Positions 5,271-59,877 of a stretch of DNA of 64,000 nt are shown here, piece after piece. The notes under the pieces are model-generated. The model saw only the letters and a list, made by a program, of their open reading frames with translations, made no database searches and was not told where the DNA came from. Every line of letters starts with the position of its first letter. The stretch's first letter is position 1. The stretch lies in the NCBI GenBank assembly GCA_000526255.1, contig JAFS01000001.1, positions 992,001-1,056,000 on the forward strand, in the 5' to 3' direction. Source of the stretch: Verrucomicrobia bacterium LP2A. GTDB taxonomy: Bacteria; Verrucomicrobiota; Verrucomicrobiia; Methylacidiphilales; Methylacidiphilaceae. The position numbers and the translations under genes are program-made.

Positions 5271-5286
5271 AGCGCCGGTCAGCCGA

Positions 5287-6351: not shown

Positions 6352-6414
6352 AGAATGCCCCTTTTCTTTCCCCTTTGCCCAGAAAGAATTCCCCCGCACG
6401 GAGTCCCAAAAACC

Positions 6415-8289
<1,875 letters not shown>

Positions 8290-8353
8290 GCTTGACTCAT
8301 TTTCGGGGTTTCGACGGCTACGAGACAGCCAAGGAAAGACAAAGTGAGAGAGG

Positions 8354-10102: not shown

Positions 10103-10125
10103 TCCGTTGGAATAAATCGGCTGTC

Positions 10126-12071: not shown

Positions 12072-12106
12072 CTTCTTTCCCCCGCTCTCTCCCTTTTCGT
12101 TTGTAG

Positions 12107-13006
12107 ATGATCCATGCCGTTCACGACCCCGCAAGCATCCACCGACGCGCGATTGCGCTCGGCCGCCTGCTGGGATGGAGACGGGCTATCCTTCTCCGCA
12201 TCCGGAACGACCCCGTGGAGGCGCTCTGCTCCCCAAGACTGCGCACCGGGGAGGGGAAACCCCGTGTCCTCCTCTCAGCGGGAATCCACGGAGACGAGCC
12301 GGCCGGAGTGGAGGCGCTGCTCTCCTTCTTCGAGCAAAAGCCGCACTGGATCGGCCAATTCGCCTTCACCCTCATCCCCCTGCTCAACCCCTGGGGGCTC
12401 CGCCACAACTCGCGCCTCAACGAGCAGGGCATCGACCTCAATCGCTCCTTTCACCGGACCGATCTGCCGCTGATCCAGGAGCTCTGCGCACTCTACGCGC
12501 GCCGCGGGCCCTTCTCCTTGGCCCTTCTCCTCCACGAGGACTACGATGCCTGCGGCATCTACCTCTACGAGACCGGCCCGAGCGGCGAAGTCCGCTTCGG
12601 AGAAGAGATCCTCTCCCGAGTGAGCCCCTGGTGTCCCGTCGACCCCCGGGACCGGATTGAAGGACGCAAGCATCGCAACGGAATCCTTGCCCGGCCCCTG
12701 CGAAGAAAGTGGTTCGAGAAGATCGGCTTGCCCGAAGCCGCCCATCTCCATTTCGCGGGATGCCGACGCGTCTTCACGATCGAGACCCCCTCCGAGTTCG
12801 ACGTCGGCTTGCGCGTGAAAGCGCACATGGAGGCGATCGATGCGGCCCTCGGCCTGCTCGCCGCGAGCCGACCACCCGCCAACCCTCGCGCGCGCTCTCT
12901 CGCCTCCCGTCGCCGCAAGGACGCTATTTCCTCGCGCGCTCCTCTTCTCGCCACCGCTCCTGCGCCGAATGGGGAAAGTCGATCGGATCAATCTCGTAGC
13001 GCCTGA
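12107..13006 (+). CDS. M14-family zinc carboxypeptidase / succinylglutamate desuccinylase-like protein
   Basis: A 299-residue predicted cytoplasmic metallohydrolase. The zinc-binding HxxE is at His61 and Glu64 (AGIHGDEPAG), the third ligand is probably His143 (LLHEDYD), the substrate Arg/Asn motif is in NRLNEQGIDLNRSF, and the likely catalytic Glu lies in FTIETPSEFD. This matches the AstE/AspA branch of M14 peptidases. The substrate cannot be read from the sequence. The C-terminal 50 residues are Arg/Ala/Ser-rich without domain character, and the last 83 bases overlap the convergent acyltransferase gene, so the tail may be poorly conserved. Confidence 0.78.
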   Translation: MIHAVHDPASIHRRAIALGRLLGWRRAILLRIRNDPVEALCSPRLRTGEGKPRVLLSAGIHGDEPAGVEALLSFFEQKPHWIGQFAFTLIPLLNPWGLRHNSRLNEQGIDLNRSFHRTDLPLIQELCALYARRGPFSLALLLHEDYDACGIYLYETGPSGEVRFGEEILSRVSPWCPVDPRDRIEGRKHRNGILARPLRRKWFEKIGLPEAAHLHFAGCRRVFTIETPSEFDVGLRVKAHMEAIDAALGLLAASRPPANPRARSLASRRRKDAISSRAPLLATAPAPNGESRSDQSRSA

Positions 13007-13745
13007 CGAGGCTCTCGAAGAGAGCGAGCAGCCGCTCGTGGATCCGCTGGGTAAAGGCGCAACGATCCTCACACGGCCCGAAAGCGAGCGGCTCCCCGAA
13101 GGAGACGAAGACGCGCGGTGGACGATGCCACGATCGAAACTGATAGAGCCGGTCGGAGCCCACGACGACCGCCGGCAGAACGGGCGTTCTCGCCATCTGC
13201 GCGAGTGCCGCAGCACTCGGGCTCAGCCGGGCTCCGAGCAAGATCGAAGCCTTGCCATGGCGGATCCCACGCTCGGGGAAGAGACCGACGATCCTTCCCT
13301 GCTTGAGCCGTTCGATCGCCGCCTTCGCCGCCCGGGCATCCTGGCGGTTCCGATCGACCGGAATCACGTTGAGGGCACCCAGGATCTGCGCGAGGACCAG
13401 GTCGTTGAAGAGCTTCCCATCCGCCACATAGTCGATCGGCCGGGGGGACCTCATCCCGAGGAGAATCGGATCGAAATGGCTGATGTGGTTGGAGACCAGG
13501 AGGCAGCCGCCGCTCTTCGGGATCCGCTCGAGGCCTTCGATCGAGATGCGCCCGCTTCTCTGGAGCACGCGCAGGCAGATCGCGCCGCTGATGGCGAAAA
13601 AACGGTCCCTCCCGCCTTGCCCCAAGCAGCCGTTGCCATTGCTCCTTCCCCGGATCTTGTCCGGCGAACCATTTCGCGCCGCGCACACCTCGGGGAAAGA
13701 AGCTTCTTCTCCCGGCTCAGGCAAATGCCCCTCTTCGATTCCCAT
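12924..13745 (-). CDS. 1-acyl-sn-glycerol-3-phosphate acyltransferase family protein (PlsC-like)
   Basis: A 273-residue membrane-associated acyltransferase. Motif I is SNHISHFDP (the catalytic His and Asp of HX4D), motif II contains VIPVDRNRQDARA, motif III is FPERGIRHGK, and a motif IV-like hydrophobic segment includes TPVLPAVVVGS. It probably adds an acyl chain to lysophosphatidic acid or a related acceptor in phospholipid synthesis. The conserved domain begins near residue 60; the first 45 residues are polar and not family-like, so the true start may lie downstream of the ATG at 13745. The 3' end overlaps the convergent M14 gene by 83 bases. Confidence 0.82.
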   Translation of the reverse strand: MGIEEGHLPEPGEEASFPEVCAARNGSPDKIRGRSNGNGCLGQGGRDRFFAISGAICLRVLQRSGRISIEGLERIPKSGGCLLVSNHISHFDPILLGMRSPRPIDYVADGKLFNDLVLAQILGALNVIPVDRNRQDARAAKAAIERLKQGRIVGLFPERGIRHGKASILLGARLSPSAAALAQMARTPVLPAVVVGSDRLYQFRSWHRPPRVFVSFGEPLAFGPCEDRCAFTQRIHERLLALFESLVRRYEIDPIDFPHSAQERWREEERARK

Positions 13746-13819
13746 TTTTGGAGGAAAAACTTTGCCTTGCTATCGCGGGTCCGAACAAGCAAATCCTTTG
13801 CCTCGGAGAGCCCCATCCC

Positions 13820-14320
13820 ATGCAAACGCCGCCGCCCGAACCGACAACCAAGCCCGCCGTCCTTTTCCTCTGCACCGGCAATTCCGCCCGGAGCGTTCTC
13901 GCTGAATTCCTCTTCCGCTCCCTCGCCAGAGACCGCTTCCGGGTCGAGAGCGCCGGCTCCCGCCCCACCGGCCGGGTCAACCCCCACGCCCTTTCCGTGC
14001 TGCAGAAAGTGTACGGTATCGACGCCTCATCGGCCCGCAGCAAGCGGATCGACGAGCTGCCGAGTGGTCCATTCGCGGCGGTGATCACCCTCTGCGACAG
14101 CGCCGCGGCCGAATGCCCCATCTGGCCCTACCCAGCCGCCCGCGCCCACTGGCCCTTTCCCGATCCGGCGGCCATCGAGGGGACGCTGGAGGAGAAGGAG
14201 CAGGCGTTTGCCGACGTCGCCCGAGCGCTCGAAGGGCGTTTCCGCAGCCTCCTGGCACTTCCCGTGGAAGCCCTCGCGCGGCCCCAGCTCGAGGCCGAGC
14301 TGCGGAAGCTCTCCTCGTAG
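13820..14320 (+). CDS. arsC: Thioredoxin-type arsenate reductase / low-molecular-weight phosphatase
   Basis: A 166-residue protein with the CX5R phosphate loop at Cys18-Arg24 (CTGNSAR). The usual second loop Cys (CxGNSCR) is Ala here. Two further cysteines at about positions 92 and 99 (LCDSAAAECPIWP), followed by HWPFPDPA, match the redox Cys pair and signature of thioredoxin-coupled ArsC. The predicted activity is reduction of arsenate to arsenite with electrons from thioredoxin. The ATG at 13820 is chosen because the upstream in-frame extension would need a TTG and is not ArsC-like. It lies 3 kb from the acr3-arsD-arsA cluster, which would export its product; the two are separated by the 14.5-17.4 kb accessory patch. 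Confidence 0.82.
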   Translation: MQTPPPEPTTKPAVLFLCTGNSARSVLAEFLFRSLARDRFRVESAGSRPTGRVNPHALSVLQKVYGIDASSARSKRIDELPSGPFAAVITLCDSAAAECPIWPYPAARAHWPFPDPAAIEGTLEEKEQAFADVARALEGRFRSLLALPVEALARPQLEAELRKLSS

Positions 14321-14346
14321 GGCGGTCCCTAGCCCTTCCTCGACTC

Positions 14347-14363
14347 GGGAGGATCATCCTCCC
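14347..14363. terminator. Perfect 7-bp hairpin after arsC
   Basis: GGGAGGATCATCCTCCC is an exact inverted repeat with a three-base loop, 27 bases after the arsC stop. There is no T-run after it, so it is at best a non-canonical terminator or an mRNA-stabilising hairpin. Confidence 0.4.
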
Positions 14364-14565
14364 TGCGCCACGGACGCGGCAAATGCTGCTTCCTTCGTGG
14401 CAATCGATCGACGCCCGGGACCGCGGACACCCCGCTCCCTCGGGCGAACGGCTTCCGTAAGATCAACCGACTCTCCTAGGGCGAGCCGGCCGGACAAAAA
14501 TTTTTCGCGTGGACCGGGTGCGCGCAAGGACCCGATCGCCTAACAGAGGATGTGGGGAGCGCATC

Positions 14566-16125
14566 GTGGAGGGGGTGTCGAAAACGCCGCAGTGGTCCCA
14601 GGCCTTCGCACGGGCCGTAGGCATCCTTTTCCTCCTCTGCCTGATCCTTCCCAGCGCCCCGATTCCCTCGCTCGGCCAGAGCGCCCTGCCGGAGCCAGAC
14701 GGCTCGGCCCAACAAGGGGAGGCACCAGCGGCGCCGAGCGGAGCGGGCACCATGAGCTCGGTCCTGCCCGGCGGCCCTACCGATCCATCCTCCCCTTCGC
14801 CGACCGACCCCTGCAACGCCTGTCCTCCGCTTCCGGCGCAGCCACAAGCCGCGCCACAAGAGCCAGCTACCCCAAGCCCGAGCCCTCCCGGAATGGCGGG
14901 CAGTGACGGCAGCGCCTCACAAGAGAGCACGCAGAGCGACACCGATCCCCCGAACCTCCAGAAGGCCCGCTGGCCGACCCGAAGCGAGCTCCTCCAATCC
15001 CACCGCGCAACTCAAGGCGGCCTCCCGCGAGCCGCCAAGCGACTTCTCCGACCGGCCCGCCTGGGCGCGTCCCATGGGGAATCGCAACCCCGAAGCCCAA
15101 GCGGGCCAGCCGGCGACCACTCCCCCGAAGAACGCAATTGAGCAGATCGCAAGCCTGCTCAACCAGTTGCACAACGGGATCGATCAGATGCAGGTCGCGG
15201 CCTTGGTCAATCTCTGGGGAATTCAGGGGTATGTGCTGGGCGAGTGGCATTTTGATCCCGCCATGATCCAGCGGGAGAAGGAGTTTCTCGAATTACTCCG
15301 GCGGCATGGCGTACAAACCCTGATCATCGAGTATCCCAAGGACCAGCAGGCGAGGCTCAACCGCTACCTCCGCGATCCCACCTATGCGAACATGGCCGAC
15401 GCGCTTTCCGCGTTCATCCTCGAGATGGTTGGAATGGAGCCGGCGAAAAGGGCGAAAGTGGTCGCTCGGCTCGCCCAGGAGCTTCAGGCGGTCGACGCCA
15501 ACCCTAGAGAGGCGCAAAGGGCCGACCCTAACCTGACCGACGCAGTTGTGGCCTTGGACCAAGCTGAGATGCGGATGGCCCGCACGTGGCTCGCTGCAAA
15601 TCGAATGGGGTTTGCCGTGCTGGCGGGAGATCTCCCCCTTCGCGAGGTTCGAGATGAAAGCGGCAAGCGGATCCCGAATCCCAGCACTCAACAGATCTCG
15701 CACTATCGGGTAAGTGGACAGGGAATGCATGACCGCAACGAGTCGATGAGCAGGTGGCCGAGAATAGCCGCGGCCCCTTTGCCATCATCGTGGGGGACGA
15801 CCACGCAGGCTTTGCCAAGGGCCGGCTCAACGACATGTTCGAAAGGGATGGCCTCCGAGTGATTGCCATTGCCCCAGGCGAGCTGAGCCCAGAGGGACGG
15901 CTGGCCGAATCGGCCATCTCCGCCTACGAGGTTGACGGGAAGAGCTTAGAGGAGCTCAACGCCATCATGCGCGAGGTTAATGCCCAGGAACCGTTTCGGG
16001 CCGTCGATGACCGGAATCAGCGGGCAGTACGGACCTTGGTCCGGGCACTCTGGCTCTGGCGGAAGCAAGAGGAGGCTAGGATAAAAGGGCTCTTCGACCA
16101 GCCACCCCAGGAGAAAAACCCCTGA
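14566..16125 (+). pseudogene. Frameshifted secreted ChaN/TraB (Tiki superfamily)-like gene
   Basis: One coding sequence appears split over three frames. The first (from the GTG at 14566, behind GGGGAG) gives a signal peptide (FARAVGILFLLCLILPSAP) and a Pro/Ser-rich linker. Near 14990-15060 the reading moves to a second frame with GYVLGEWHFDPAMIQREKEF and TLIIEYPKDQQARLNRY. Near 15740 it moves to a third, with VAENSRGPFAIIVGDDHAGF. LGEWH, the acidic IIEYP strand, RNESM and GDDHA in this order match the ChaN/TraB-like metallo-protein pattern. Two shifts in one gene point to decay, but sequencing errors are not excluded. Followed 13 bases later by another exported protein, so perhaps once one operon. 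Confidence 0.6.
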
Positions 16126-47309: not shown

Positions 47310-47385
47310 TGCCGCGTGGTGCAATTGGTAGCACACCAGACTCTGGATCTGGGTGTTCTAGGTTCGAGTCCTAGCGCGGCAGCCA
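47310..47385 (+). tRNA. tRNA-Gln (anticodon CUG)
   Basis: All stems fold: acceptor TGCCGCG with CGCGGCA (7 bp), D stem GTGC/GCAC, anticodon stem CCAGA/TCTGG with loop CTCTGGA (anticodon CTG, reads CAG), and T stem CTAGG/CCTAG with loop TTCGAGT. Discriminator G at 47382 and an encoded CCA at 47383-47385. Confidence 0.97.
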
Positions 47386-47427
47386 GATTGCGGAAATCCG
47401 CAGTGGCAGGACTTCTTTCCCGATCGA

Positions 47428-47601
47428 TCACGAGAGCTGCGCGATGCGCCAGAAGCCTGTGGCAAGCTTCGCGAGCTTCCTCTGATGCTCCAGAAGCCGC
47501 TCAGGCGTCCACTCCTCATTCTCCTCGGCAAGCTCGCAGGTGAGCCGAAGCTTGCTCTTCTTGAGAGCCAGCCGCTTCTCGGCATAGGGCCGATTGGCCA
47601 T
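47428..47601 (-). pseudogene. C-terminal tail of a GmrSD-like DUF262/DUF1524 gene
   Basis: Fifty-seven residues, ANRPYAEKRLALKKSKLRLT then CELAEENEEW and LLEHQRKLAKLATGFWRIAQ, match the extreme C-terminus of DUF1524 (HNH) proteins such as GmrSD modification-dependent restriction enzymes. It reads on the minus strand towards the tRNA. Its N-terminal partner is 2.15 kb away at 49764-50210, beyond the mobile element, so one gene has been split and most of its middle lost. Not likely to be expressed as a working protein. Confidence 0.6.
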
Positions 47602-47623
47602 ATCCCTGTTCGGGCCTATCGAC

Positions 47624-47652
47624 TTGACACAGACCTCCACAATCCCTAGATT
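47624..47652 (+). promoter_or_regulatory. Promoter of the IS1595-like transposase gene
   Basis: TTGACA (47624-47629) and TAGATT (47647-47652), spaced by 17 bases, lie directly before the ATG at 47659; transcription would start almost at the start codon. The -35 box lies inside the left terminal repeat, as is common in small insertion sequences. Confidence 0.55.
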
Positions 47653-47658
47653 TTGATC

Positions 47659-48183
47659 ATGATCGGCACCGCCGTCACGCTCCGTGCGTTCCACGATCTC
47701 TTCCCGGACGAGGACGCCGCGCGGGCGTGGTTTGAGCGCGCCCGCTGGCCGGACGGCCCGATATGCCCGGTGTGCGGATGCGTCAACCACGCTTCCTGGC
47801 TGCGGACGATCCGCCGCTGGCAATGCACCGCCTGCCACCGACAGTTCTCGGTCACCGCTGGCACGCCGATGCACCGCACCCACCTGCCGATGCTCACCTG
47901 GGCGCAGGCCATCTACCAGATCGTCGCGTCGAGCAAGGGCATCTCCGCCGTGAAGCTCTCGGAGATGCTGGGCGTATCCTACCAGGCGGCGTGGCACCTC
48001 GGTCACCGCATCCGCGCCATGATGGCCGAGGATAGCCCATTGCTGTCCAACCTCCTCGAGATCGACAAGACCCATGCCGGAGCGCCGCCGCGCAAGCGCC
48101 CCAAGCCGGAGCGCATGGCCCTGCTCGTCCGGGGCGGCGTCGGGCGCATGCTGCCTTATCGCTTTCTCACGGGAACCGCCTGA
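47659..48183 (+). pseudogene. IS1595-family transposase, C-terminally truncated
   Basis: A 174-residue protein. It has the IS1595/ISXO2 N-terminus: LFPDEDAARAWFERARWPDG, a zinc ribbon (CPVCGC and CTAC), SVTAGTPMHRTHLPMLTWAQ and the helix-turn-helix VKLSEMLGVSYQAAWHLGHR. The DDE nuclease domain begins (EIDKTHAGAP, first catalytic Asp) but ends within its first strands, so the later catalytic Asp and the third catalytic residue are missing. It cannot be an active transposase alone. The stop codon TGA overlaps the TnpB ATG (TGATG), which implies coupled translation. Confidence 0.75.
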
Positions 48184-49745
48184 TGGCCCGCACCAAGCCC
48201 GAGCATCCGCCCGTCCATCGGACCGACCTGCTGCCGTCGAACCTGACGGCCAGCAAAGAGGCGGCGGTGCGCGCGCTGCTCAGAGCCTACCGCCGGGGCG
48301 CGGTGCTGCTGGGCCGGGAAGAGTGGCGGCTCTTCTTCGAGACGGGCCGCTTTGAGAAGAACCACGACGTGGACAAGGTCACCTTCGCCGCCGTCATCGG
48401 CGCGGCCAACCGCGTCCAGATGGCCCGCTGGCAGGTCGTCGGGCAGCTCCAGGGCTGGATCCGTAACCGGGCCAATGAGTTTCGAGACATGGTCAACCAC
48501 AGCACGCTGACACCCGCCACCAAGCAGATGCTCCACGCCATCAACGGCCTGGGCGCGTGGTTCCGGCGCGGCGAGGTGGCGAGGAGAGACACGGGCGAGG
48601 TGATTCCCGTTTCCGTGCGACGGCTGGCGCGCGCCATGATGCGCCACTGCATGGCGCGGCATCGCCGCCCGGACCTCTCGCGCATCTCCATGCGCCTCGA
48701 CCACCGCGCGGGGAGCATCTCCCGCCCCATCCAGGCGACGCAGGGCGGCAGGGTCGGCTGGTGGGTGAGCCTCTCCACGCTCGAGAAGGGGCGCAAGATC
48801 GCCATCCCGCTGCTTACCTACGACTACCATGCCAAGCGTCCTGGCCGCGTGACCAACGGCATCCAGGTGAACGAGCGCGAGGGTCGCCTGAGCTTCGGCG
48901 TGGTGACCGACATGGGCGAGGTCTGCGCCAAAAGCCGCGCCGCCTACGACGGCCACGGCGCGCTGGCGCTTGATTTTGGGCTGTCCACGCTCTTGGCCAC
49001 ATCCGACGGCCGGCTGCGCGGCCAGGGATGGCTCAAGCGGCTCAAGCGGTACGACGCGCTGCTTGCCTTGATCGCGGCCAGCCAGCAGCGTGCCGGACGC
49101 AGGCCACGCGAGAGCAAGCGGTATCGAGCGCTGGTGGAGGACGTGCGCGGCTTCCTTCGCACCGAGGTCGGCCGCGTGCTCAACCGCCTTGTCGAGCAGG
49201 GCAAGCCCAAGGAGTTGGTGCTGGAGCGGCTCGACTTCCGCCACTCCGACCTCTCAAGGCGGCTCAACGCGATCCTGCGCAACTGCGGACGCTCGATCGT
49301 CCAGGAGAAGTTGCGCGACCTGGAGGAGCGGTTCGGAATCCCCTCCGCCGAGGTCAACGCCGCATACACCTCTCAGGCATGTTCCGGTTGCGGCTATGTG
49401 GACAAGCGGAACCGCCGCGACCAGAAGACCTTCGTCTGCCTTTGGTGCGGTCACCAAATGCACGCCGACCTCAATGCGGCGGCCAACATCGAAGCGCGCC
49501 GTGCGCGCCCCAATGGTTGGCTGTTCCAGGGGAAGGCTGCGGTCCTTGCCGAGCTCGTGCGCGAGTTCGGGGAGCGACGTGTCCGGGCGCTGGGCCTGGG
49601 CAGAACCGGGAGCCGGGGTGCCCCCGCCGACCCACGATCAACCAATCCCTACTTCGGTGGAGTGCCGTCGACCGTGGTGAGGTCATCCGAACGCCGCGAG
49701 GCGTCCATGAAATCGCCCGATACTCCAGCCCTTGTGGCTGCCTGA
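48183..49745 (+). CDS. tnpB: TnpB, RNA-guided nuclease (IS200/IS605-IS607 accessory protein)
   Basis: A 520-residue protein, longer than most TnpB (about 400). The RuvC-like site is complete: Asp264 in LDFGLSTLLATS, Glu348 in LVLERLDFRHS and Asp429 in MHADLNAAANIEA. The zinc finger has Cys400 and Cys403 (CSGCGYVDKR) and Cys419 and Cys422 (CLWCGHQ). TnpB proteins use an omega-RNA from their own 3' end to cut DNA that matches the flank of the element, keeping the transposon at its site. No TnpA of the IS605 (Tyr) or IS607 (Ser) type is present; the partner here is an IS1595 fragment. The 3' end overlaps a strongly structured RNA region. Confidence 0.88.
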   Translation: MARTKPEHPPVHRTDLLPSNLTASKEAAVRALLRAYRRGAVLLGREEWRLFFETGRFEKNHDVDKVTFAAVIGAANRVQMARWQVVGQLQGWIRNRANEFRDMVNHSTLTPATKQMLHAINGLGAWFRRGEVARRDTGEVIPVSVRRLARAMMRHCMARHRRPDLSRISMRLDHRAGSISRPIQATQGGRVGWWVSLSTLEKGRKIAIPLLTYDYHAKRPGRVTNGIQVNEREGRLSFGVVTDMGEVCAKSRAAYDGHGALALDFGLSTLLATSDGRLRGQGWLKRLKRYDALLALIAASQQRAGRRPRESKRYRALVEDVRGFLRTEVGRVLNRLVEQGKPKELVLERLDFRHSDLSRRLNAILRNCGRSIVQEKLRDLEERFGIPSAEVNAAYTSQACSGCGYVDKRNRRDQKTFVCLWCGHQMHADLNAAANIEARRARPNGWLFQGKAAVLAELVREFGERRVRALGLGRTGSRGAPADPRSTNPYFGGVPSTVVRSSERREASMKSPDTPALVAA

Positions 49746-49751
49746 GTTAAC
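49610..49751 (+). ncRNA. Likely omega-RNA scaffold (reRNA) of TnpB
   Basis: Four hairpins in a row lie over the TnpB 3' coding end and just past it: CGGGG/CCCCG (49614-49626), CTAC-TTCG-GTGG with a UUCG loop (49649-49660), ACGCC-GCGA-GGCGT with a GNRA loop (49691-49704), and ACTC-CAGCC with GGCTG-GAGT (49722-49747). It ends TTAAC at 49751, beside the element end. The place and the structure match omega-RNAs of other TnpB genes. The guide would then start at about 49752 or 49764, depending on the true end. Confidence 0.55.
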
Positions 49752-49763
49752 GCGATAGTACCC

Positions 49764-50210
49764 ATCCCGATAATAGGCGTCGTTGTGCCGGTTGAGGGAA
49801 AGCTTGTTTTCCGACCGGAGCGTCACGGGGTCGAGATAGCCGATATAGGTTGCCCGCAGCTGGTCGATCCGTTTTTGGTTGGGTTCGGCATTCTTCTCTT
49901 CTGCGATCAATCTTTTGAGCCGCCGCATGGCGGCGAGCACAATGAGGCTCAGCGTCGTCAATCGTTGCTGGCCATCGATCACCTCGAAGAGGCGGTTGTT
50001 GGTCGTCTGCAGGACCAGATAACCGAGGTAATGGCCAGGCTCCCCTTCCGGAGGAGGCATTAGGGTCCCCAAGATATCTGCCCAGAGGTCTTCCCACTCA
50101 TGCTCACGCCAGGAATAGTCCCGTTGAAAACGGGGAATCCGGTAGATCAACCCGTTGCCGAGCAGTTGCCGATAGGTGCGGTTTTCCGTATTGAAGTTGG
50201 TCGCCGCCAT
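49764..50210 (-). pseudogene. N-terminal fragment of a GmrSD-like DUF262 protein
   Basis: About 149 residues of a DUF262 domain: IPRFQRDYSWREHEWEDLW, VIDGQQRLTTLSLIVLAAM (the DGQQR NTP-binding motif) and KLSLNRHNDAYYRD. It then runs into the mobile element and stops after 25 foreign residues at 49683. DUF262/DUF1524 proteins are Type IV-like restriction enzymes (GmrS/GmrD) acting on modified DNA. The rest of the gene is missing except a C-terminal tail at 47428-47601. The ATG at 50210 has GAAAG upstream. Confidence 0.7.
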
Positions 50211-51231
50211 CTTTCAAATCCGTGCCGGAGGTTCCGAGCCCGGATCCCATTTCTCTTTTGGGCCCGGGATTTCTGCAACACCTTTCGCAGGCAGCTTCGG
50301 CGCCCATCCCTGAATCGAGGGAAGCCGCAACGACTGCGCACTCCGCGACCGAGGGCTTCGTTCCTCGAATGCGATCTCAGGTTGGAAGCCGAATCGCCCA
50401 GGACTGAGCTGGCCTCCCAAGGCAAAATCTCCCGCAGATCCCGCATTTCCACTGGGCGCATCCGCGGCGGCGGCATTCCTTTGCGCCGGAAGGGGCTTCC
50501 TTCCGCATACCCTTTCGCGCCATAGGGCACCGATGGCGAGATCGTGGGACTCTCGGACGCTGCTGCCTTATCGCTGAAGCTCGGGCAATCCCCTTGCGGA
50601 CAGCCTGCAAAGTGAATCGGAACTCATCGGCTCCTCCTTCGGGAGAATCGTGTCAAGTGACAGGAGCAACCGATCCCTTGGCGTCATTGAGCATTGACCC
50701 CTCTATACGGCTTTTTTGAATGGTTGGGCTGGGGCTCCCAGCTGAACTGAGCGGTTGAGGAGAGCGGTTTTGGGTTGAGGGATGGCAAGAAGCGGGGTTC
50801 TTGCCATCTTCGACGGATTTTGCGGAGAGAGGAGACCCTCAAGGAGACTTCGATTTTGTCGATCCTCCATGACGGGAGATTGCCACCTACAGCCCGCCAA
50901 ATCAGCTCCCATTGTTTTCCCTCAACTCCATAGCCTACAGCGCGCGTTGCATCTCGATCTGCGCGCTCCTAGCGCAATTTTGGCATTGGCAGCTGCCTTT
51001 GCCGACCGCAACGCGGAATCCTTCTGTTTCCTCCGGTGCCGAAGCAACCTTCCAGGCTCCGTGGCCGACCTGAGCGGAAGGGAAGCGCGACAGCAGGGAG
51101 CCCCCTGGCTTTTGCCGTGGGTAAGCAGCGCATTTCGGTCGGGTATTCGGCAGAGGGGGTAAAAGGAGTTGACAGCCCCTGAGCGCCTGTTAGGCTCCTT
51201 CACAACCGATTCGGGCGCAGGAGCAAAGGAC
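50211..51231. other. 1-kb gene-free stretch
   Basis: Open frames here have no family, no ribosome site and Arg/Ser/Pro-rich products. The only strong structure is the hairpin at 50781-50808. Some runs (such as 50700-50720, CTATACGGCTTTTTTGAATG) are AT-rich and could hold promoters. The last 60 bases contain the ribosome site of the protease-hydrolase gene. Confidence 0.5.
50781..50808. repeat. Perfect 11-bp inverted repeat
   Basis: GATGGCAAGAA and TTCTTGCCATC are exact reverse complements separated by six bases (GCGGGG). No T-run follows on the plus strand. It could be a terminator, an operator or an insertion-sequence end. Confidence 0.6.
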
Positions 51232-54200
51232 ATGGCCCCTTCCTCCGAGGAACCTCTCAATCCGGATGAGACCCCGAGCAGGCCTCCGCACGACATCCGG
51301 GCCAATCTGACCAAGACACGCATCGCGCCAGACCTGCTTGCCGAGATGGTGGCGATCCGTTCTGACCTCTCCACCGAGCCCGCCGGCGGCGGGGGCAGTC
51401 CCGCGCCCGCTCTTTGGGAGACGCAGCCCCTGGGATTGATCGCGAAAGACATTCCGTCACCACCCCCGACGTTCGACGTGATCATCGAATTCAATCGAGA
51501 CTTTCCCGGCGGAATCAGGGAAGCCCGGGAAATCCTGCTTGCCGCATCCGAAAAGGCCAGCGGCACTCCATCCGAACTGGCCATTACCCGACCGGACTAC
51601 CAGGCGGCTCCCTCCGCCGAGCTGCACAGGTACATTGACGACTTGGCCAAGGCCTTTGGGCCGGACGACGAGGTTAAGAAAAAGAAGTCGCTATACACCG
51701 ACAATTACATCTTCGCCACGCTCTCGAACGGCATGATCACGAAGCTTACGAATTGGACGCTTTCTCTTCCGAGCAATCCGACCGACCCCGCAGGCTCGAG
51801 GAAGCAAGTTCCTCTAATCTATAAGATTTGGAAGGACCGGAAGATTGCGCGCTGCGTGTACGAATCGGCGCGGACCATCAAGTGCGATGCTGCGAGGAGA
51901 ACGTATGGCGCCGACGGCAAGGGAGTCGTTTGGGCGATCGCCGATACGGGCATTGACCAGACCCATCCGCACTTCCGGCTGCTGGAGACCTTGAAGCTTG
52001 AGAATGGGCTGCGACACAAGGACTTCACAGAGGAGCACTCCTCTGAGGACGATTCCGAGAAAGCCGCGCTGCAAGATGAAGACGGCCACGGGACGCATGT
52101 TGCCGGGATCATCGCCGGCTTCACCTGTCGGAAAGAGACAACTCCGGGCGTTACGTCGGATCTCGAGAAAATCATCGTCAATGCTCAGGAACGCGATGGG
52201 AAGGGCAATACAAAAACCAACCAGTTCGAACGCCGCGACCCTATCTCCGGGCTGGCGAAGCATTGCAAGCTTTTGAGCCTGCGGGTCTTGGCGCGTGGCG
52301 AAACGGGCGATTTGAGCAATTTGCTGGCGGCGATCGGCTATATCCAACAATGCAACGACAATGGGCGATCCCTCAAGATCCACGGCCTCAACCTGAGTCT
52401 CGGATACGAGTTTAGCCCGGAGTGGTTTGCCGCTGGCCAAAGCCCGCTTTGTGTCGAAGTCGATCGGCTGGTGCGGTCCGGCGTCTGTGTCGTTGTCGCG
52501 GCAGGCAATGCCGGCTATGGCATCGTCCGCTCCTACACGGGCGCGGGCGAGCAGGCGGCACAGATGGGGACCATCTCGGATCCCGGCAACGCGTCGCTCG
52601 CAATCACGGTCGGCTCGACCCACCGCGACATGCCGCATGTCTATGGCGTTTCCTATTTCTCGGCGAAAGGACCCACTGCGGACGGGCGGATGAAGCCCGA
52701 TCTCATTGCCCCCGGCGAACGCATTGTATCTTGCGCCTTGATGGATCCGAAGGGCCCGCAAGGGAGGGAAGCGCCCTTCCGCGAGGATTCGGGAACCAGC
52801 ATGGCGGCGGCGCACGTCTCTGGTGCGATCGCAGCCTTCCTATCCGTGAGGGACAAATTCAAAGGCAAGCCCGAGCAGGTCAAGGCCATCTTCATGAAGG
52901 CGGCAACCGACCTGCGTCGCTGCGAAGAGTTCCAGGGAGCGGGTCTCCTTGATCTGATGCGCGCCCTTCAGTCCGTCCAAAGAGGATCCAATATGAGCGA
53001 AGAAAGCTGGTCTCCGGCGCTCTGGCTGGAGTTCGACGAGCAGGGAAAAATCGATGCCGAGGCCTCTGCTCAGCTAATGCAGATCCTTGGGGCACCGAGC
53101 GTTGAGGATTTGGTAATCCTCTCGCACGGCTGGAACAACGACAAGGAGAATGCGACCAAGCTTTACAGCGCTTTATGGACCAACACGGCCACGAATTTCC
53201 CCAAGGGCACGGTGGGGCGAATGGTCGTCGCCGGCGTGCTCTGGCCCTCCAAGGCGTTTCGGACCGATTTCGACGTGATGTCGCTGACGAGCGCCGACCT
53301 CGACCACACGCTTGCTCTAGCTGGAGGCGCCCAGCAGCAAGATCTCTCGGACGAGGAGTGGAAATCGCTGCTAGACGATTTTGAGAAGTTTCTGGGAGCT
53401 GCGGGTGAGGCGACGGTAACCGCAGCGGGGGCGGCGGCAGGATCGCTGACGGAGAGCAACGCCCACGCTTTGGTGATGGCGGGAGCGACCGCGGTCGGTG
53501 TCAACGTTCGATCGCGCGATCCTGAGCTCGCGCTTGATTCCGCCGTGCTTGCGCAGGCGCAAGCCTCGAAGACCGACGCGAAGCTGCTTCTCCTGAACCT
53601 TGCTGATCCACCGCAGCTGACGCTTCCGCCGCGACTCGGAACCGCCCTAGGGCTCGGTTCCCTAGTGCAAGGTGTGATCGCGGGGACGCGGGCCGCCGTC
53701 GCCCGCTTCCTCAACTATCTCACTTTTTATGAAATGAAGAAGCGTGCCGGGGTCATCGGGGCGAGCTTGGCGAACGACGTCCTCGCTAAGCTCAGCCCCT
53801 CCCGGCCGACTCGACTCCATCTCGTAGGCCATAGCTTCGGCGGGAGGTTGGTGACGGCAGCCACTAATCAATTTACACCCGGCCCTAACCTCGAACTCTT
53901 TTCTCTAACGATCCTGCAAGGCGCCTATTCGCAGAACGCTCTTGCCCGGCAGGTCAAGCCCGGCCTCGATGGGGCCTTCCCGTCGGTCGTTGGCAGACCC
54001 ACCGGACCGATTACGATTACACACACCCACAATGATCTGGCCTTAACCGTCGCCTATCCTCTCGCCTCACGGCTTTCGCATGACATCACGCAGGCTATCG
54101 GCGACGCGAGCGACGAGTTCGGGGCGATGGGAGCAAACGGTCCGCATAAGCTTGCACCGGGCGTGGCCGAGCCCGATGACGTTACGCAAGCCTTCGCTCC

Positions 54201-54327
54201 AAAGCGAGGCAAGGTGAACACCTTCCTGGCCGACGGCTTCATCGTGAAGACAGCCCAGGTCGACGCCCACAACAACGTCACTAATCCGACTGTCGGATGC
54301 CTTCTTGCCGGGACAATCTTGGCCTGA
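51232..54327 (+). CDS. Subtilisin-type serine protease fused to an alpha/beta hydrolase
   Basis: A 1031-residue protein. After about 200 residues of unknown type comes an S8 peptidase domain with Asp238 (IADTGIDQTHPH), His286 (DGHGTHVAGI) and Ser523 (GTSMAAAHVSG). A second domain follows from about residue 590: LVILSHGWNNDKENATKLYS (oxyanion strand) and LVGHSFGGRLV with nucleophile Ser868, like alpha/beta-hydrolases (DUF900 or lipase type). No signal peptide, so it should act inside the cell. Inside the frame, ATG 52993 (Met588) with AGAGGATCC before it could start the hydrolase alone. ATG 51232 has AAAGGA. Flanks are unknown. Confidence 0.8.
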   Translation: MAPSSEEPLNPDETPSRPPHDIRANLTKTRIAPDLLAEMVAIRSDLSTEPAGGGGSPAPALWETQPLGLIAKDIPSPPPTFDVIIEFNRDFPGGIREAREILLAASEKASGTPSELAITRPDYQAAPSAELHRYIDDLAKAFGPDDEVKKKKSLYTDNYIFATLSNGMITKLTNWTLSLPSNPTDPAGSRKQVPLIYKIWKDRKIARCVYESARTIKCDAARRTYGADGKGVVWAIADTGIDQTHPHFRLLETLKLENGLRHKDFTEEHSSEDDSEKAALQDEDGHGTHVAGIIAGFTCRKETTPGVTSDLEKIIVNAQERDGKGNTKTNQFERRDPISGLAKHCKLLSLRVLARGETGDLSNLLAAIGYIQQCNDNGRSLKIHGLNLSLGYEFSPEWFAAGQSPLCVEVDRLVRSGVCVVVAAGNAGYGIVRSYTGAGEQAAQMGTISDPGNASLAITVGSTHRDMPHVYGVSYFSAKGPTADGRMKPDLIAPGERIVSCALMDPKGPQGREAPFREDSGTSMAAAHVSGAIAAFLSVRDKFKGKPEQVKAIFMKAATDLRRCEEFQGAGLLDLMRALQSVQRGSNMSEESWSPALWLEFDEQGKIDAEASAQLMQILGAPSVEDLVILSHGWNNDKENATKLYSALWTNTATNFPKGTVGRMVVAGVLWPSKAFRTDFDVMSLTSADLDHTLALAGGAQQQDLSDEEWKSLLDDFEKFLGAAGEATVTAAGAAAGSLTESNAHALVMAGATAVGVNVRSRDPELALDSAVLAQAQASKTDAKLLLLNLADPPQLTLPPRLGTALGLGSLVQGVIAGTRAAVARFLNYLTFYEMKKRAGVIGASLANDVLAKLSPSRPTRLHLVGHSFGGRLVTAATNQFTPGPNLELFSLTILQGAYSQNALARQVKPGLDGAFPSVVGRPTGPITITHTHNDLALTVAYPLASRLSHDITQAIGDASDEFGAMGANGPHKLAPGVAEPDDVTQAFAPKRGKVNTFLADGFIVKTAQVDAHNNVTNPTVGCLLAGTILA

Positions 54328-54478: not shown

Positions 54479-55291
54479 TTACTCGCCGGCTCGCCGGACG
54501 CTCGCCGACAACCGCTGGGTCCACTCCCGGACCGCCCTCTCGAGCTCGCGGGGGGGAGGCGGAACCAATTCCTCCGTCCGAGCCGTCGAATAGTAGAGGC
54601 CGTCATTATCGTCCTTGTAGCGCTCGCCATCGGTCCAATAATAGAGCTTCAGCCTTACGACCGCATCCCTGGGAACCTGGATCGGCTCCGTCTCCCAAAT
54701 CGGCCAGCCGGCGTCGTTGCGGTGGTCGGTGCGCCCGAGATCGATCTCCTTCGGTCCGGCGGTCTCTTGACCTACGATACGCCAATGGAGGACGAGCCGC
54801 GCGACGTCGGGCGAGGCAGCAACCTGTGCCGTGAAAATGCCGTCCCGAACATCCGCTTGCCGCAACTCGACCTGGAGCGACGGAAACCCGAAATGGAAAT
54901 TGTGGCCGAAATCGCTGTCGCAGCGCTTCGGGCCGTGAGGGCTTTCATATTCGAACCAAGCGGTCATCTCATGCGCCCCCGCGGGAATGGCGGCGTGGCC
55001 GACCAATACGCTTCCGTCGCCAGTCTCGTCATAGTCGGGAGAGGTTAGCATTCCGGACGGGGAGCGCAGCGGAGTTACGCTGACCACGCCGGTGGGCGGA
55101 AAGCGCAGGTGCGCCGTGATCCGGTGGCCGGGGTCGCCGAAGATGTAGTGCTCGTCTGCAGGCACGATGCGCCTTGGATCGTAGCGCAAGGTCACAGTTT
55201 GCCCCGGCTGGAAATTGCCCCTCACCAGCTCGTGGAAGTCGGCCGTAAAGGTAATGCGAGGCGGTAAGTTGCCGAAAGGTCGCGGAATCAT
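54479..55291 (-). CDS. DUF6209-like protein of unknown function
   Basis: A 270-residue protein without signal peptide. RITFTADFHELVRGNFQPGQ, LRYDPRRIV and FEYESPHGPKRCDSDFGHNF suggest a beta-sandwich protein of the DUF6209 type, recalled from memory and not certain. Its C-terminal half contains LYYWTDGERYKDDNDGLYYS, which resembles starch-binding folds. It overlaps the stop of the GH31 gene by four bases (ATGA), so it is coupled to it and may help the enzyme bind glucan or protein. Function not known. Confidence 0.55.
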   Translation of the reverse strand: MIPRPFGNLPPRITFTADFHELVRGNFQPGQTVTLRYDPRRIVPADEHYIFGDPGHRITAHLRFPPTGVVSVTPLRSPSGMLTSPDYDETGDGSVLVGHAAIPAGAHEMTAWFEYESPHGPKRCDSDFGHNFHFGFPSLQVELRQADVRDGIFTAQVAASPDVARLVLHWRIVGQETAGPKEIDLGRTDHRNDAGWPIWETEPIQVPRDAVVRLKLYYWTDGERYKDDNDGLYYSTARTEELVPPPPRELERAVREWTQRLSASVRRAGE

Positions 55292-58158
55292 GGCAGGTCG
55301 AACTCCTTGTCAAATTTCAATGGGTCTCTCATGTCGTCTCTACATCCATCTGGGCCGACTGCAATCGTAACCGAGGCCCGGTCGTCCATGACCTTGACGA
55401 CGAGCGAGCGGGTGCCACCGTCCTGGGCGAACGCGTCTCCTGACTGGTTGGCAAGCTGGTCGACGCTTGTGACTTGCGGCAGCGTGGCCCCGTTCACGGT
55501 GACCGAGGCGGGCAAGCTCGCGGTAGTGGGATCGTACAGGACGCGCACGAGGAGATAGGGCTCCGGAGGGGTATAGGCATCGATCAGGCGTTGCACCACG
55601 ATCGTCCGGACTCCCCCCTGGGACGTCTGGCTGATTCGTGTCGTTCGGTATTCCCCGTTGCTCTCCGCACGGGTGGTGAACCCGTCATCGAGGTACATCA
55701 GGTAATCGCGATCGGGGCCGGGATAGACGGTGATCTCGAGGGGATTCTGCGGCAGCTGCCCGACATACTGCTCGACCAGCGAGAGCATCGGCAGGATCGC
55801 GCCGGCGCGAATGTAGATCGGCACCTGGTCGAGGCCCGCCACCCAGTTCGGGATGTTGGTGCCCGCAGGGACCGCCGCGTCGAGCGGCGCCGTATTGTCC
55901 TTGAACGCGTACCAGGCAGCCGTGTTGGGAAGGTAGACGCTGCGCGTCGCGACGGGGGGATTCTGTTGCTGCGCCGGGAAGAGAATCGGGGCCACCAGAA
56001 AGTCGCGTCCGACGAAAAACTGATCCCCGAGATGGTGGTAGACCTGGGAATCCGAGGGGTCGTTCAGGAATAGAGCGCGCGCGGGCGGCATGCCGGTCTG
56101 CGTCCATTCGTACAGGGCATCGTAATGGATCTGCAGCATCCGGTAGCGCAGCTCCACGTATTTGCGGCAGTGGGTCGGGACCGGCTCCCCGTAGTTGTAG
56201 GGCTCCTGGAACTGCTTGTTGTATCCGTCGTAGTGATTGCGATACCAGGGCAGGAACGCACCGAGGTGCATCCACCGCGTCAGCAGCTCGTAGTTCGTGA
56301 CACCGCCGTGGACGAAGCCGGGGCCATAGCTTGATTCGCCGACGCTGGCCGAGCCTTTCGCAAACCCGCCGATGTCGCAGCCCGAGATCGGCACGCCGGA
56401 GAGCCCGAGGTTGAGCACCTCGGGAAGGTTGACCGCGAGGAAGTCCCAGCTCGACGCGGAGTCTCCAGTCCAGAGCGCGCAGTAGCGCTGGATTCCGGCG
56501 AAACCGCCGCGGGCGATCATGAAGTTGCGCCGGTCGGGGCGGAGCGCGCGCAGGCCCTCCCAGGTCGCCTGGGCCAGGAACAGCGCGTAGGCGTTGTGGC
56601 AGGAGCCGTTTGGCGCGTAGCCCACGCCGTCATTGACCATCAGCGTCAGCGGGAAGGTGTTGTACGCAAACTTCGTCGAATCGAGCGCCGGGCACATCAT
56701 ATCCTGCCAGATCATGTCGATCCCGACCTCCCGGATCAGATGGGCATATTGCTGGCCCCAAACCTGCCGCACGTCCGCTCGGCCAAGATCGGGGTAGTTC
56801 CCCGACGACGACAGAGGCATGTTTCCGTACTGGTTGGGAGTCAGCGGCGGGTAATGGTAGGGATTGAAGCGATTGAAGTTCACTCCGTAATTCACCCCAC
56901 CAATGAAGAGGGAGCGGCTGGGTCCCTGCCCGACATAGGTCCCATAGATCAGGCCGCCCATGTTGAGGATGGCCTGGCGTTGCGCATAGGCCGTCGTATT
57001 GCCGTTCTCGTCCAGCGCGTTGTCGGTCAGGAAGGGCGTGATGTTGGTCGAGCACTTGAAGCCTTGCGCATGAAGCTTCGCGAGCAGGGCCGGAGCATTG
57101 GGAAATTTGATCTCGCTATGCGTGAAGGTCCGATAGTTGTCCTGGAAGTCGACGTCGATATGCAGCCCGTCGCACGGTATGCCGCTTTGGCGATAGGCAT
57201 CCGCTGCGGCCTGCAGCCGGTTGTAATCGTAATAGCCATAGGCTCCCTGGTGAAACCCTAGTGCGTACCGCGGCGGCATCGGGCTGCGGCCGGTCAGCGT
57301 CGTGTATTGGGCCAGGACATCCTGGGCGTGATCGCCGAGCAGAAAGTAGGTGTCGAGCTCGCCGAAGAGCGCTCCATAATAGATCTTGCCATCCATGTTT
57401 GAATAGTCGTTCGATCCTAGGTTGAAGTAGGATTGCGAACTATTGTCCAGGAACAACCCATAGGCATAGGGCGCACCGGCAAATTCCTTGTTCGGGCTGG
57501 GATTCACTTCCAGAAGGAAAGGGATCGACACGTAGAGCGGCTCCGACGGATTGAGCGGCCCCGGGCCCGACGGCACGGTGACGCCCACGCTGTAGGTGTA
57601 GTTGTCGAAATTGAACTGCGTCAGCGTAAAGAGGCTCTTGTTCAGCTGTGCACCGGCCTTCTCGCCTAATCCAAAATACAGGGCCGTTTCCGGCCGTTGC
57701 CGGAAGTTGGCGATCACAAAATGGCCCGGAATATAGACCAGGTTATAGGTCGGTGGGTCGGCAGCAATCAGTTGCGCACCGCGGAAGACCTGCAAGCGGT
57801 AGGGCTGCCGGTCGATCTGGACGCGCATCGACCCGGTGTCGACGACCAGGCGAGCCGGCGAGTCTTCCGTGACGGTCAGGCTCACGGGCCCAAGATTGAG
57901 GTTCACCACGGCGGGCGAGCCCTGCGGCCCGTAGGTGGCCGCTGGATCCGGGTGGAAGCGAAGGCGGAAGCTCGTCATTGACAAAAAGGAGAGCAGGATC
58001 CGGCAACCTCCCGCGAGTTCCAGCGTGAAGGTGTCGCCGTTCCGGGTCACGTTCTGAACGGGCCCGGCGGAAGTCCAGTCGCCGCGGTTCGGCGTGAAGT
58101 CATTCACCGGGGTGTAATCGATATCCGCGGGGTAAGCGAGGTTGGTCTGGGCGTCCAT
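55288..58158 (-). CDS. GH31 protein resembling alpha-1,4-glucan lyase
   Basis: A 956-residue glycoside hydrolase of family 31. The nucleophile is Asp486 (GIDMIWQDMMCP) and the second catalytic Asp566 lies in LWTGDSASSWDF. WQDM and WTGDxASxW, and the end YPGPDRDYLMYLDDGFTTRA, are closer to algal and fungal alpha-1,4-glucan lyases (which make 1,5-anhydrofructose from starch) than to alpha-glucosidases (usually WxDMNE). N-terminal DUF5110-like and galactose mutarotase-like parts flank the barrel. No signal peptide is visible, so it would act on internal glycogen. Not proved: alpha-glucosidase or transglycosidase activity is possible. Operon with 54479-55291. Confidence 0.85.
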   Translation of the reverse strand: MDAQTNLAYPADIDYTPVNDFTPNRGDWTSAGPVQNVTRNGDTFTLELAGGCRILLSFLSMTSFRLRFHPDPAATYGPQGSPAVVNLNLGPVSLTVTEDSPARLVVDTGSMRVQIDRQPYRLQVFRGAQLIAADPPTYNLVYIPGHFVIANFRQRPETALYFGLGEKAGAQLNKSLFTLTQFNFDNYTYSVGVTVPSGPGPLNPSEPLYVSIPFLLEVNPSPNKEFAGAPYAYGLFLDNSSQSYFNLGSNDYSNMDGKIYYGALFGELDTYFLLGDHAQDVLAQYTTLTGRSPMPPRYALGFHQGAYGYYDYNRLQAAADAYRQSGIPCDGLHIDVDFQDNYRTFTHSEIKFPNAPALLAKLHAQGFKCSTNITPFLTDNALDENGNTTAYAQRQAILNMGGLIYGTYVGQGPSRSLFIGGVNYGVNFNRFNPYHYPPLTPNQYGNMPLSSSGNYPDLGRADVRQVWGQQYAHLIREVGIDMIWQDMMCPALDSTKFAYNTFPLTLMVNDGVGYAPNGSCHNAYALFLAQATWEGLRALRPDRRNFMIARGGFAGIQRYCALWTGDSASSWDFLAVNLPEVLNLGLSGVPISGCDIGGFAKGSASVGESSYGPGFVHGGVTNYELLTRWMHLGAFLPWYRNHYDGYNKQFQEPYNYGEPVPTHCRKYVELRYRMLQIHYDALYEWTQTGMPPARALFLNDPSDSQVYHHLGDQFFVGRDFLVAPILFPAQQQNPPVATRSVYLPNTAAWYAFKDNTAPLDAAVPAGTNIPNWVAGLDQVPIYIRAGAILPMLSLVEQYVGQLPQNPLEITVYPGPDRDYLMYLDDGFTTRAESNGEYRTTRISQTSQGGVRTIVVQRLIDAYTPPEPYLLVRVLYDPTTASLPASVTVNGATLPQVTSVDQLANQSGDAFAQDGGTRSLVVKVMDDRASVTIAVGPDGCRDDMRDPLKFDKEFDLP

Positions 58159-58200
58159 GACAACGATCCTGTGGTTGACGATTGCTGAGGCCCCAGGCGA

Positions 58201-59877
58201 TCAATGTGCGATGTCGATGAAGCCGGCGGGCCCGCGCGGCTTGGCCGGGGCCGAGTTTGGCAGCGGCGCCGTTTGCGCTTCAATCTGAAGGAGCCAGGAG
58301 AAGTTCCCGTTGCCGGTCTTCCCGAAATGCGAGTTCTCGCCAAAGATCGGGATCTTCCGCCCATTGCCGTCCCGCTTGACGCTTCCGTCCTCGTTGGTCC
58401 GGAAGCCAACGGCGGCGCCGGCGGAGTAGTGGCAGCCGACGCAGCTTTCCGTGCCGAACACCGGCGTGTTGTCGATCGGCGGTGCGCCGTCTGCCAGTCG
58501 ATCGTCCTGCTCCAGCGGGCCGGCCGGCTGCAGCCCTTTCTGGAAATAGGTTTCCATCGTCGTGTTCACGAGGAAGACAGGGACCATATCGCCGGGCGTC
58601 TTGTGCGTGATGCTCTCCGGTGCGCTCATGTTTCCCCCAGCAAAGGCGGGCGCGTTCGGATGCACCGGCCACTGCGTCCCGATGAGCTCGTAATACTCGA
58701 ACACCGAATGCTCTCTCCGCAGCGCCGCCTGCACCTCCGCGTTGAGCGCCGCCGTCGAAGCGGCGATCTTCTTGTCGAGTGGATTGAGCGTTCCCTGGGT
58801 CGGCACGTCGACTCGCGTCACCTGGACGGGGGTGGTGGTCAGATGCTCGATCCAAGTGGTGGCCTTGGCCGGGTCGGGCTCGATCACCGGCGACCCGCTC
58901 CTCGGATCGAGGGTGGCGTTCTTGGGCGGCAGCTGGTTGGGCGCAGCATGGGAATGCGGGTCGAAGAAATTCGGATGGGACTCGCCTCCCCCGGGCAGCG
59001 GGTTGGAGCGCACGTTGTCGATCTGCTCGAACGTGGCCCAGATCCACTCCGGCGACGAGCGGGTCCGCATCGAAATATGCATGCCCACCAATCCCGCATC
59101 GATCTCGCGTGTCGGCGGCTCCTGGCCGTCCGGAAAGGGCTCGGCGAGCTGGACGCGGACGCGGCGCGTGAAGAACCGGCTGCGGTCATCGTTAGCGCCG
59201 AGCTCCTTCCACGCAAACTTCACCTCGATCGCGCCGCGCAGCCGTTTGGATGCCGAGCCGATCGGGAAGGCGATCTCGTTATCGTCGGCTTTCTGCGTGT
59301 ATTCTACCTGGCCGTCGAGGCTATAGAGCTTGTTGCTGACGAGGTAGTCGAACTCTTCCTTGTTCACCAGCACTTCGTAGCGGACCCATTTCCCGTTCTG
59401 ATCGACCAGCGGGCCCGAAAAGGCCTGAAAATTCTGATCCGCGCTGGTCGTATGCTGCCGCCACGCCGCCTTGGGGCGGAAGAGGGAGTTCTCTTCCGCA
59501 GTCGCTTGGCTCGGGTTCCAAGGCCTGGGACGGGCCCCCTCCGGCAGAAAGATGGTGCTGGCGGGTCGCCAGAAGCTCCAGACCCGCTCCGAGGAGCCGT
59601 CGGCGATCGTCTTGCCTCGGGCCGGCTTTCCGTCGGACGCCGCAGGCCAGTTCAACGCAATGAAGGTCTGCCACGCGAGAATGTCAAACTCCCGTTGCGC
59701 TTCGAGCACTCGACCCTCTCGGTCGAAACGATCCACCACCGCCCGATCGACGTCGTAGGGAAGGTTTGACGAGAACGGCAACGGGAACGAGCGCCCAGCC
59801 GGTGACTGCGCGAAAGCTGTTGATGCGAATGCGAGCAGACCGGCACCGAGAGCCGAGCGACAGAACATAGTCCCCAT
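58201..59877 (-). CDS. Exported protein with one c-type heme motif
   Basis: A 558-residue protein with signal peptide (CRSALGAGLLAFASTAFAQ). A single CxxCH at Cys479-Cys482-His483 (ESCVGCHYSAG) lies near the C-terminus. The rest is a large soluble domain (DILAWQTFIALNWPA and VGMHISMRTRSSPEWIWATF) known from a family of proteins called cytochrome c-like in many proteobacteria; I know no function. Possibly a periplasmic electron-transfer or oxidase protein. It is the first gene of the minus-strand run before GH31, 42 bases apart. Confidence 0.65.
   Translation of the reverse strand: MGTMFCRSALGAGLLAFASTAFAQSPAGRSFPLPFSSNLPYDVDRAVVDRFDREGRVLEAQREFDILAWQTFIALNWPAASDGKPARGKTIADGSSERVWSFWRPASTIFLPEGARPRPWNPSQATAEENSLFRPKAAWRQHTTSADQNFQAFSGPLVDQNGKWVRYEVLVNKEEFDYLVSNKLYSLDGQVEYTQKADDNEIAFPIGSASKRLRGAIEVKFAWKELGANDDRSRFFTRRVRVQLAEPFPDGQEPPTREIDAGLVGMHISMRTRSSPEWIWATFEQIDNVRSNPLPGGGESHPNFFDPHSHAAPNQLPPKNATLDPRSGSPVIEPDPAKATTWIEHLTTTPVQVTRVDVPTQGTLNPLDKKIAASTAALNAEVQAALRREHSVFEYYELIGTQWPVHPNAPAFAGGNMSAPESITHKTPGDMVPVFLVNTTMETYFQKGLQPAGPLEQDDRLADGAPPIDNTPVFGTESCVGCHYSAGAAVGFRTNEDGSVKRDGNGRKIPIFGENSHFGKTGNGNFSWLLQIEAQTAPLPNSAPAKPRGPAGFIDIAH

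Follow-up and report, generated by a model that had tools for sequence, protein, structure and literature searches.

A subtilase and a lipase-like hydrolase, encoded by adjacent genes in relatives, share one reading frame in Verrucomicrobia bacterium LP2A

The reading frame at 51232..54327 (+ strand) encodes an S8 subtilase followed by an α/β-hydrolase in 1031 aa with no interruption. It lies in a window of 64,000 nucleotides of Verrucomicrobia bacterium LP2A DNA, the whole stretch analysed here. Comparison with relatives indicates that the two enzymes belong to a conserved two-gene operon and that they were joined in this genome by loss of the protease stop codon. Our best explanation, in which we place about as much belief as doubt, is that the operon of S8 protease and lipase-like hydrolase was acquired horizontally, that the hydrolase is most likely activated by the protease, and that stop loss then joined the two in the window genome.

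The protease half comprises 582 codons (51232..52977, +; Pfam and alignment) and ends ...LQSV, like the separate proteases of its relatives. The junction between protease and hydrolase was checked in 22 relatives, and in all 22 the two are separate, adjacent genes. The set covers Rhizobium (n=6; loci L002, L003, L007-L009, L062), Sinorhizobium (L018), Bradyrhizobium (n=2; L005, L006), a Beijerinckiaceae MAG (L004), genomes of the Bradyrhizobium family (n=2; L089, L090) and, on the actinobacterial side, Rhodococcus (n=3; L017, L094, L095) and others (n=7; L045-L048, L050, L051, L053). The proteases of these relatives have the ending ...(L/I)Q(S/A)V, with TAA, TAG or TGA as the next codon. There is usually a ribosome-binding-like site after this stop, and the distance to the hydrolase start ranges from a few nucleotides to a few tens.

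In the window the junction reads GTC CAA AGA GGA TCC AAT ATG. The junction alignment places the CAA codon (52978..52980, +) where the inspected relatives, as well as the pairs with an MBL-type partner described below, have TAA, TAG or TGA. The following AGAGGA (52981..52986, +) is a retained ribosome-binding-like site, located 6 nt upstream of the hydrolase ATG at 52993. Judged from this alignment, the fusion arose when the protease gene lost its stop codon; one T-to-C change would be enough if the ancestral stop was TAA. Fusion as the conserved architecture of the family was rejected, none of the 22 relatives being fused. Since no other fused copy was found, the fusion appears to be private to this genome and recent or, less likely, a sequencing error. 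The retention of AGAGGA and of the ATG at 52993 means that free hydrolase could still be translated, and the window genome may make it from this internal start. The initial annotation had emphasised a one-chain fusion of protease and hydrolase and asked whether the two domains are always fused or occur as neighbours. The 1031-residue frame is indeed open but the emphasis was misplaced: the relatives have neighbouring genes, and the single chain reflects stop loss within their operon.

Residues 229-571 of the fused frame match Peptidase_S8 (Pfam PF00082, E 1.7e-40). The catalytic residues Asp238, His286 and Ser523 (codons at 51943, 52087 and 52798, +) are invariant in an alignment of 18 sequences. 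With its S8 domain and Asp/His/Ser triad the protease half belongs to peptidase family S8 (subtilases). The PADLOC 'subtilase' model PDLC03014 gives E 8.3e-49, but this model covers the common S8 fold. The N-terminal ~200 residues resemble a subtilase pro-domain by eye and in the order of predicted secondary structure; Pfam and PDB sequence searches gave no support to this assignment, and we leave the region unassigned. With a pLDDT of 46, the structure model of the protease half was of too low quality to be used, and its Foldseek matches were meaningless. A hydropathy scan found no signal-peptide-like stretch in either half of the window protein or in the relatives, the maximum mean hydropathy reaching 0.7 in the protease and 1.3 in the hydrolase, compared with 2.6 in the control.

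The hydrolase half, as defined by alignment and model, comprises 444 codons from its own ATG (52993..54327, +). Its nucleophile Ser868 (53833, +) is the serine of the GHSFGG motif; this residue is missing in one of 19 aligned hydrolases, which comes from a locus without the protease. Asp935 (54034, +) and His1013 (54268, +) are invariant in all 19. The Pfam match to Abhydrolase_1 is weak (E 0.011, below the Pfam cut-off). An AlphaFold2 model was built from 17 sequences (pLDDT 77, pTM 0.83). By structure alignment it superposes with lipases and phospholipases over ~165-220 residues (Z 12-13.8), the best matches being Tle3 (Z 13.8), Nir DDHD domains (12.8-13.3) and a Bacillus lipase (13.0); the fold resembles esterases and a PHB depolymerase too. 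On this evidence the second half belongs to the α/β-hydrolase superfamily and is lipase-like, with a nucleophile elbow and Ser-Asp-His; the fold suggests a lipase or phospholipase. Several points made at the outset hold up: both active sites are complete, the chain has no detectable signal peptide, the second half is a Ser-nucleophile hydrolase, and the whole reads as an intracellular protease with a lipase-like partner.

The partner of the protease is not always a hydrolase. Some S8 relatives recovered in a plasmid search with the window protein have an MBL-fold protein as the next gene instead. Carriers of such S8-MBL pairs are Methylorubrum extorquens CM4, Paroceanicella, Miltoncostaea, Sinorhizobium meliloti, Rhizobium phaseoli, R. 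leguminosarum RCAM2802 and one genome of the window's own class. All six MBL partners tested match the PADLOC models LmuA (E 1e-46 to 1e-53), Avs1a and RTasMBL; no PADLOC model matched the window hydrolase. In the same place of the operon, one S8 subfamily thus stands beside either of two types of hydrolytic enzyme. From this swap with the MBL pro-nuclease family we infer that the S8 protease activates its partner.

On plasmid pCMU01 of M. extorquens CM4 (L016, 3779-10454) genes for a nucleotide cyclase, an E2 and a cNMP-binding TIR protein (Pycsar-like) are followed directly by the genes of an S8-MBL pair; the five genes may together form a defence unit whose nuclease is gated by the subtilisin. 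An FRG-domain gene, the S8 protease and the MBL protein occur together in L068 (R. phaseoli pRphaR630c, 4617-14825) and L093; DUF3616, SIR2 and NERD-kinase genes follow in L068, which looks like a defence island. A patatin-like phospholipase gene is located upstream of the S8-MBL pair in L067 (4826-9093, immediately) and in L015 (4363-9965, with one gene between). A Tle1-like gene is part of one of the S8-MBL operons. Genes for DUF3616 and DUF2272 recur near pairs of either kind (L018, L062, L068, L093).

The hydrolase model contains a predicted helical insertion, a candidate lid, at hydrolase residues 120-201 (53350..53595, +). A low-confidence loop borders it on either side (hydrolase residues 91-114 and 209-227). 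The second loop carries GTALGLGS (53638..53661, +), a candidate cleavage loop located by a motif search that was defined post hoc. The motif G-x-[AVT]-x-[GAS]-[LIVFM]-[GS] is present in 18/20 S8-paired and 0/7 unpaired hydrolases (Fisher p 4e-5), with the provisos that it was chosen after looking, that the rows are not independent and that several of the seven unpaired hydrolases share one Streptomyces-like lineage. In most motif-bearing hydrolases it falls in the second loop. The Gly/Ala/Ser content of the two loops does not differ significantly between paired and unpaired hydrolases. We regard the motif as a lead rather than proof of a cleavage loop. For comparison with the insertions of the MBL pro-nucleases, which block the active site and carry conserved cut sites, the hydrolase offers this helical element between low-confidence loops, together with the post hoc motif.

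By analogy with known protease-activated systems, we propose that the pair is an effector operon in which the protease gates a lipase-like enzyme, probably for defence against phage. The hydrolase would be held inactive by the helical lid between its two flexible loops. Some trigger, most probably infection by a phage, would release the subtilase, which would cut the loops flanking the lid, and the freed lipase or phospholipase would damage the cell's own membrane. In the window genome the fused product could be self-processed, or could be joined by free hydrolase from the internal start. A bolder version of this proposal strikes us as tentative and rather doubtful: that an intracellular subtilisin is an interchangeable immune trigger of an MBL pro-nuclease or a pro-lipase, that it cuts two small-residue loops at the lid, and that the window copy is a self-processing polyprotein.

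The window genome (2.47 Mb, 3 contigs, 99.9% complete) has two copies of PF02461 (AMO/pmoA family), and the G+C content of the window is about 63%; together these features suggest a verrucomicrobial methanotroph such as Methylacidimicrobium. In the genus members examined the flanking DNA is conserved up to the end of tRNA-Gln (CTG) (47310..47385, +), which marks the edge of synteny; the sequence that follows differs in most of them. In the genus-mate G063, colinearity (92-93%) extends as far as tRNA-Gln and resumes at 54008. Genome comparison therefore places the segment missing from G063 at 47389..54007 (no strand assigned), beginning right after the tRNA gene. The final ~110 hydrolase codons are retained in G063 beside tRNA-Gln, which makes it most likely that the common ancestor had the operon and that G063 deleted it. 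The variable segment also holds a gene for TnpB (RNA-guided nuclease family; Pfam; 48183..49745, +), a GmrSD_N (DUF262) fragment of 175 aa that is cut short (Pfam; 49683..50210, -) and an IS1595-type zinc-ribbon fragment. A broken restriction gene and TnpB beside the frame, and an accessory location, had been noted from the start, and both observations are confirmed. The downstream genes on the - strand (54479-59877) are one for a DUF6209 protein, which 3/7 genus members share, one for a GH31 glycosidase and one for a 558-aa product that matches nothing in Pfam.

Where they are well supported, the protease tree and the hydrolase tree agree, and on these trees the S8-hydrolase pair has travelled as a unit. 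Both place the window pair in a clade of ten members, the others all alphaproteobacterial (support 100/100 and 100/99), with Bradyrhizobium closest to it; horizontal acquisition of the operon by the window genome forms one part of our joint best explanation. Many copies of the pair are plasmid-borne. The pair is nevertheless rare. Among sampled genomes the hydrolase was found in 1/385 from the class that includes Rhizobium, this one being the query itself, and in 15/346 from the actinobacterial phylum, some without an S8 neighbour. For a phage origin no match was found, either in phages, searched with the hydrolase half, or in viral contigs. Within the window genome's family, genome G050 (L060, 6468-9279) has a hydrolase remnant with broken frames, divergent beside a SIR2-like gene.

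In Bradyrhizobium the next gene, ~60 nt downstream of the pair, encodes a HAD-SIR2-STALD protein matching ThsA (E 4.7e-37). This gene and that of a 288-aa protein apparently form one operon with the pair (L005, 13000-16088, where the ThsA match was scanned; L006, 12998-16086). A caspase gene lies two genes downstream of the pair in one actinobacterial locus. Most Rhizobium copies and one Bradyrhizobium-family copy lie among transporter or metabolic genes, the common location in R. leguminosarum being between an ABC transporter operon and thiMED, and one copy adjoins TctC and hydantoinase genes. No sensor gene fixed beside the S8-hydrolase pair was seen in the neighbourhoods compared. In Streptomyces-like genomes (L054, L055, L059) a gene for the exo-muramidase NamZ lies immediately upstream of the S8-less hydrolase; the hydrolase of L059 has lost its nucleophile Ser (GHGAG). 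The initial annotation had speculated on a defence system, with defence genes as neighbours and an effector activated by cleavage. Neighbours of this kind (ThsA-like, caspase, and a Pycsar-like operon beside one S8-MBL pair) suggest defence without showing it, most Rhizobium copies sitting in a transporter and thiamine context. Activation by cleavage is supported by analogy, in that the S8 subfamily pairs elsewhere with an MBL family shown to be protease-activated in antiphage defence (PMC12799240).

The NamZ genes beside S8-less hydrolases would also suit a protease and an esterase that maintain the envelope or cell wall through peptidoglycan or envelope turnover, outside defence. The Amidase_3 and Glucosaminidase genes near the pair in L062, the PG_binding_1 genes near L090 and L091 and the DUF2272 genes are in keeping with such a role. 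Neither protein carries a signal peptide, however, the sister S8 subfamily pairs with proteins of the MBL pro-nuclease type, and the pair has a patchy occurrence, with frequent copies in variable segments or plasmids; we consider envelope maintenance unlikely. Somewhat less probable again is a pair of ordinary metabolism, mobilising a polymer or storage lipid as an accessory trait. It would account for the R. leguminosarum copies between the ABC transporter operon and thiMED and for a fold that is also like esterases and a PHB depolymerase. The flanking genes nevertheless vary between lineages while the pair stays intact, and metabolism gives no ready reason for a swap to an MBL nuclease family.

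The protease might instead degrade the hydrolase, the two forming a toxin and its proteolytic antitoxin. Such an arrangement would fit the two-gene order with translational coupling as well as the flexible loops of the hydrolase, but the known protease-MBL pairs, whose MBL family is common to the sister branch, work by activation (PMC12799240), and we hold degradation to be improbable. We assign an equally small probability to the window copy being a decaying or misread operon, whose stop loss is early decay or a sequencing error and whose fusion has no special meaning. The sister genome G063 has deleted nearly all of the operon, the segment holds broken genes, and the junctions checked include no further fused relative, all of which decay would explain. 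It would sit less easily with 1031 codons free of frameshifts, with the retention of all catalytic residues and of the ribosome site, and with an assembly of 3 contigs that is 99.9% complete.

The unlocking of effector enzymes by proteases has only recently been recognised as a theme of bacterial immunity, and it has been shown for proteases of the trypsin and caspase types that act on MBL nucleases (Tuck et al. 2025, PMC12799240). If the hydrolase is indeed gated by the subtilase, the operon would add both a protease class (S8 subtilase) and an effector class (lipase-like hydrolase) to protease-unlocked immunity. No S8-hydrolase or S8-MBL system was found in the literature searched, which left out preprints and most subscription papers. 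The two-gene operons of both kinds are directly testable in laboratory strains.

Other known systems share single elements with the pair. T7SS mycosins were rejected as a match, the S8 fold scoring 85.9 bits, far below the family cut-off of 278.75; unlike mycosins, the window protease has no signal peptide and no ESX genes among its neighbours. With IetAS the pair shares an accessory location and an S8 peptidase inside the cell (IetS). The IetS model NF042956 scores only 35.1 bits against a cut-off of 900 and there is no adjacent AAA ATPase, the window frame being flanked by the GmrSD fragment and the DUF6209 gene; this assignment was rejected too. The closest solved fold to the hydrolase belongs to the type VI lipase effectors Tle1/Tle3 (Tle3, Z 13.8). 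In contrast to these effectors the window pair shows neither T6SS genes nor a delivery domain, and the hydrolase is intracellular beside a protease. A caspase always stands beside an α/β-hydrolase in the MoxR-vWA (VMAP) ternary systems, for which a conflict role is predicted (Kaur et al. 2020, PMC7159879). The window pair shares with them a protease beside an α/β-hydrolase, a likeness in gene pairing. The VMAP systems differ in that their protease is a caspase and MoxR, vWA and VMAP genes are present; none of these genes was seen among the scanned window neighbours or in the annotated plasmid neighbourhoods of relatives that were viewed.

The nearest parallel is provided by the systems of Tuck et al. 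2025 (PMC12799240). In Hachiman and AVAST an MBL nuclease is inactive until cut by a trypsin-like protease, an arrangement also found in Lamassu and DRT, and in Canu a caspase cuts the MBL pro-nuclease, so that the nuclease is gated. The text of that paper names no subtilisins as partners, and its tree cites 'multiple protease families'. The window protease is an S8 subtilisin and not a trypsin or caspase, its partner is a lipase-like hydrolase and not an MBL nuclease of the HamM, Avs1a or LmuA type, and the pair has no fused sensor enzyme. Like the window pair, the described systems set a protease gene beside the gene of a hydrolytic enzyme, and partners are swapped between proteases. The S8 relatives of the window protease pair with the same MBL family (LmuA, Avs1a and RTasMBL models), and the authors predict that further classes of protease-activated enzymes exist (PMC12799240).
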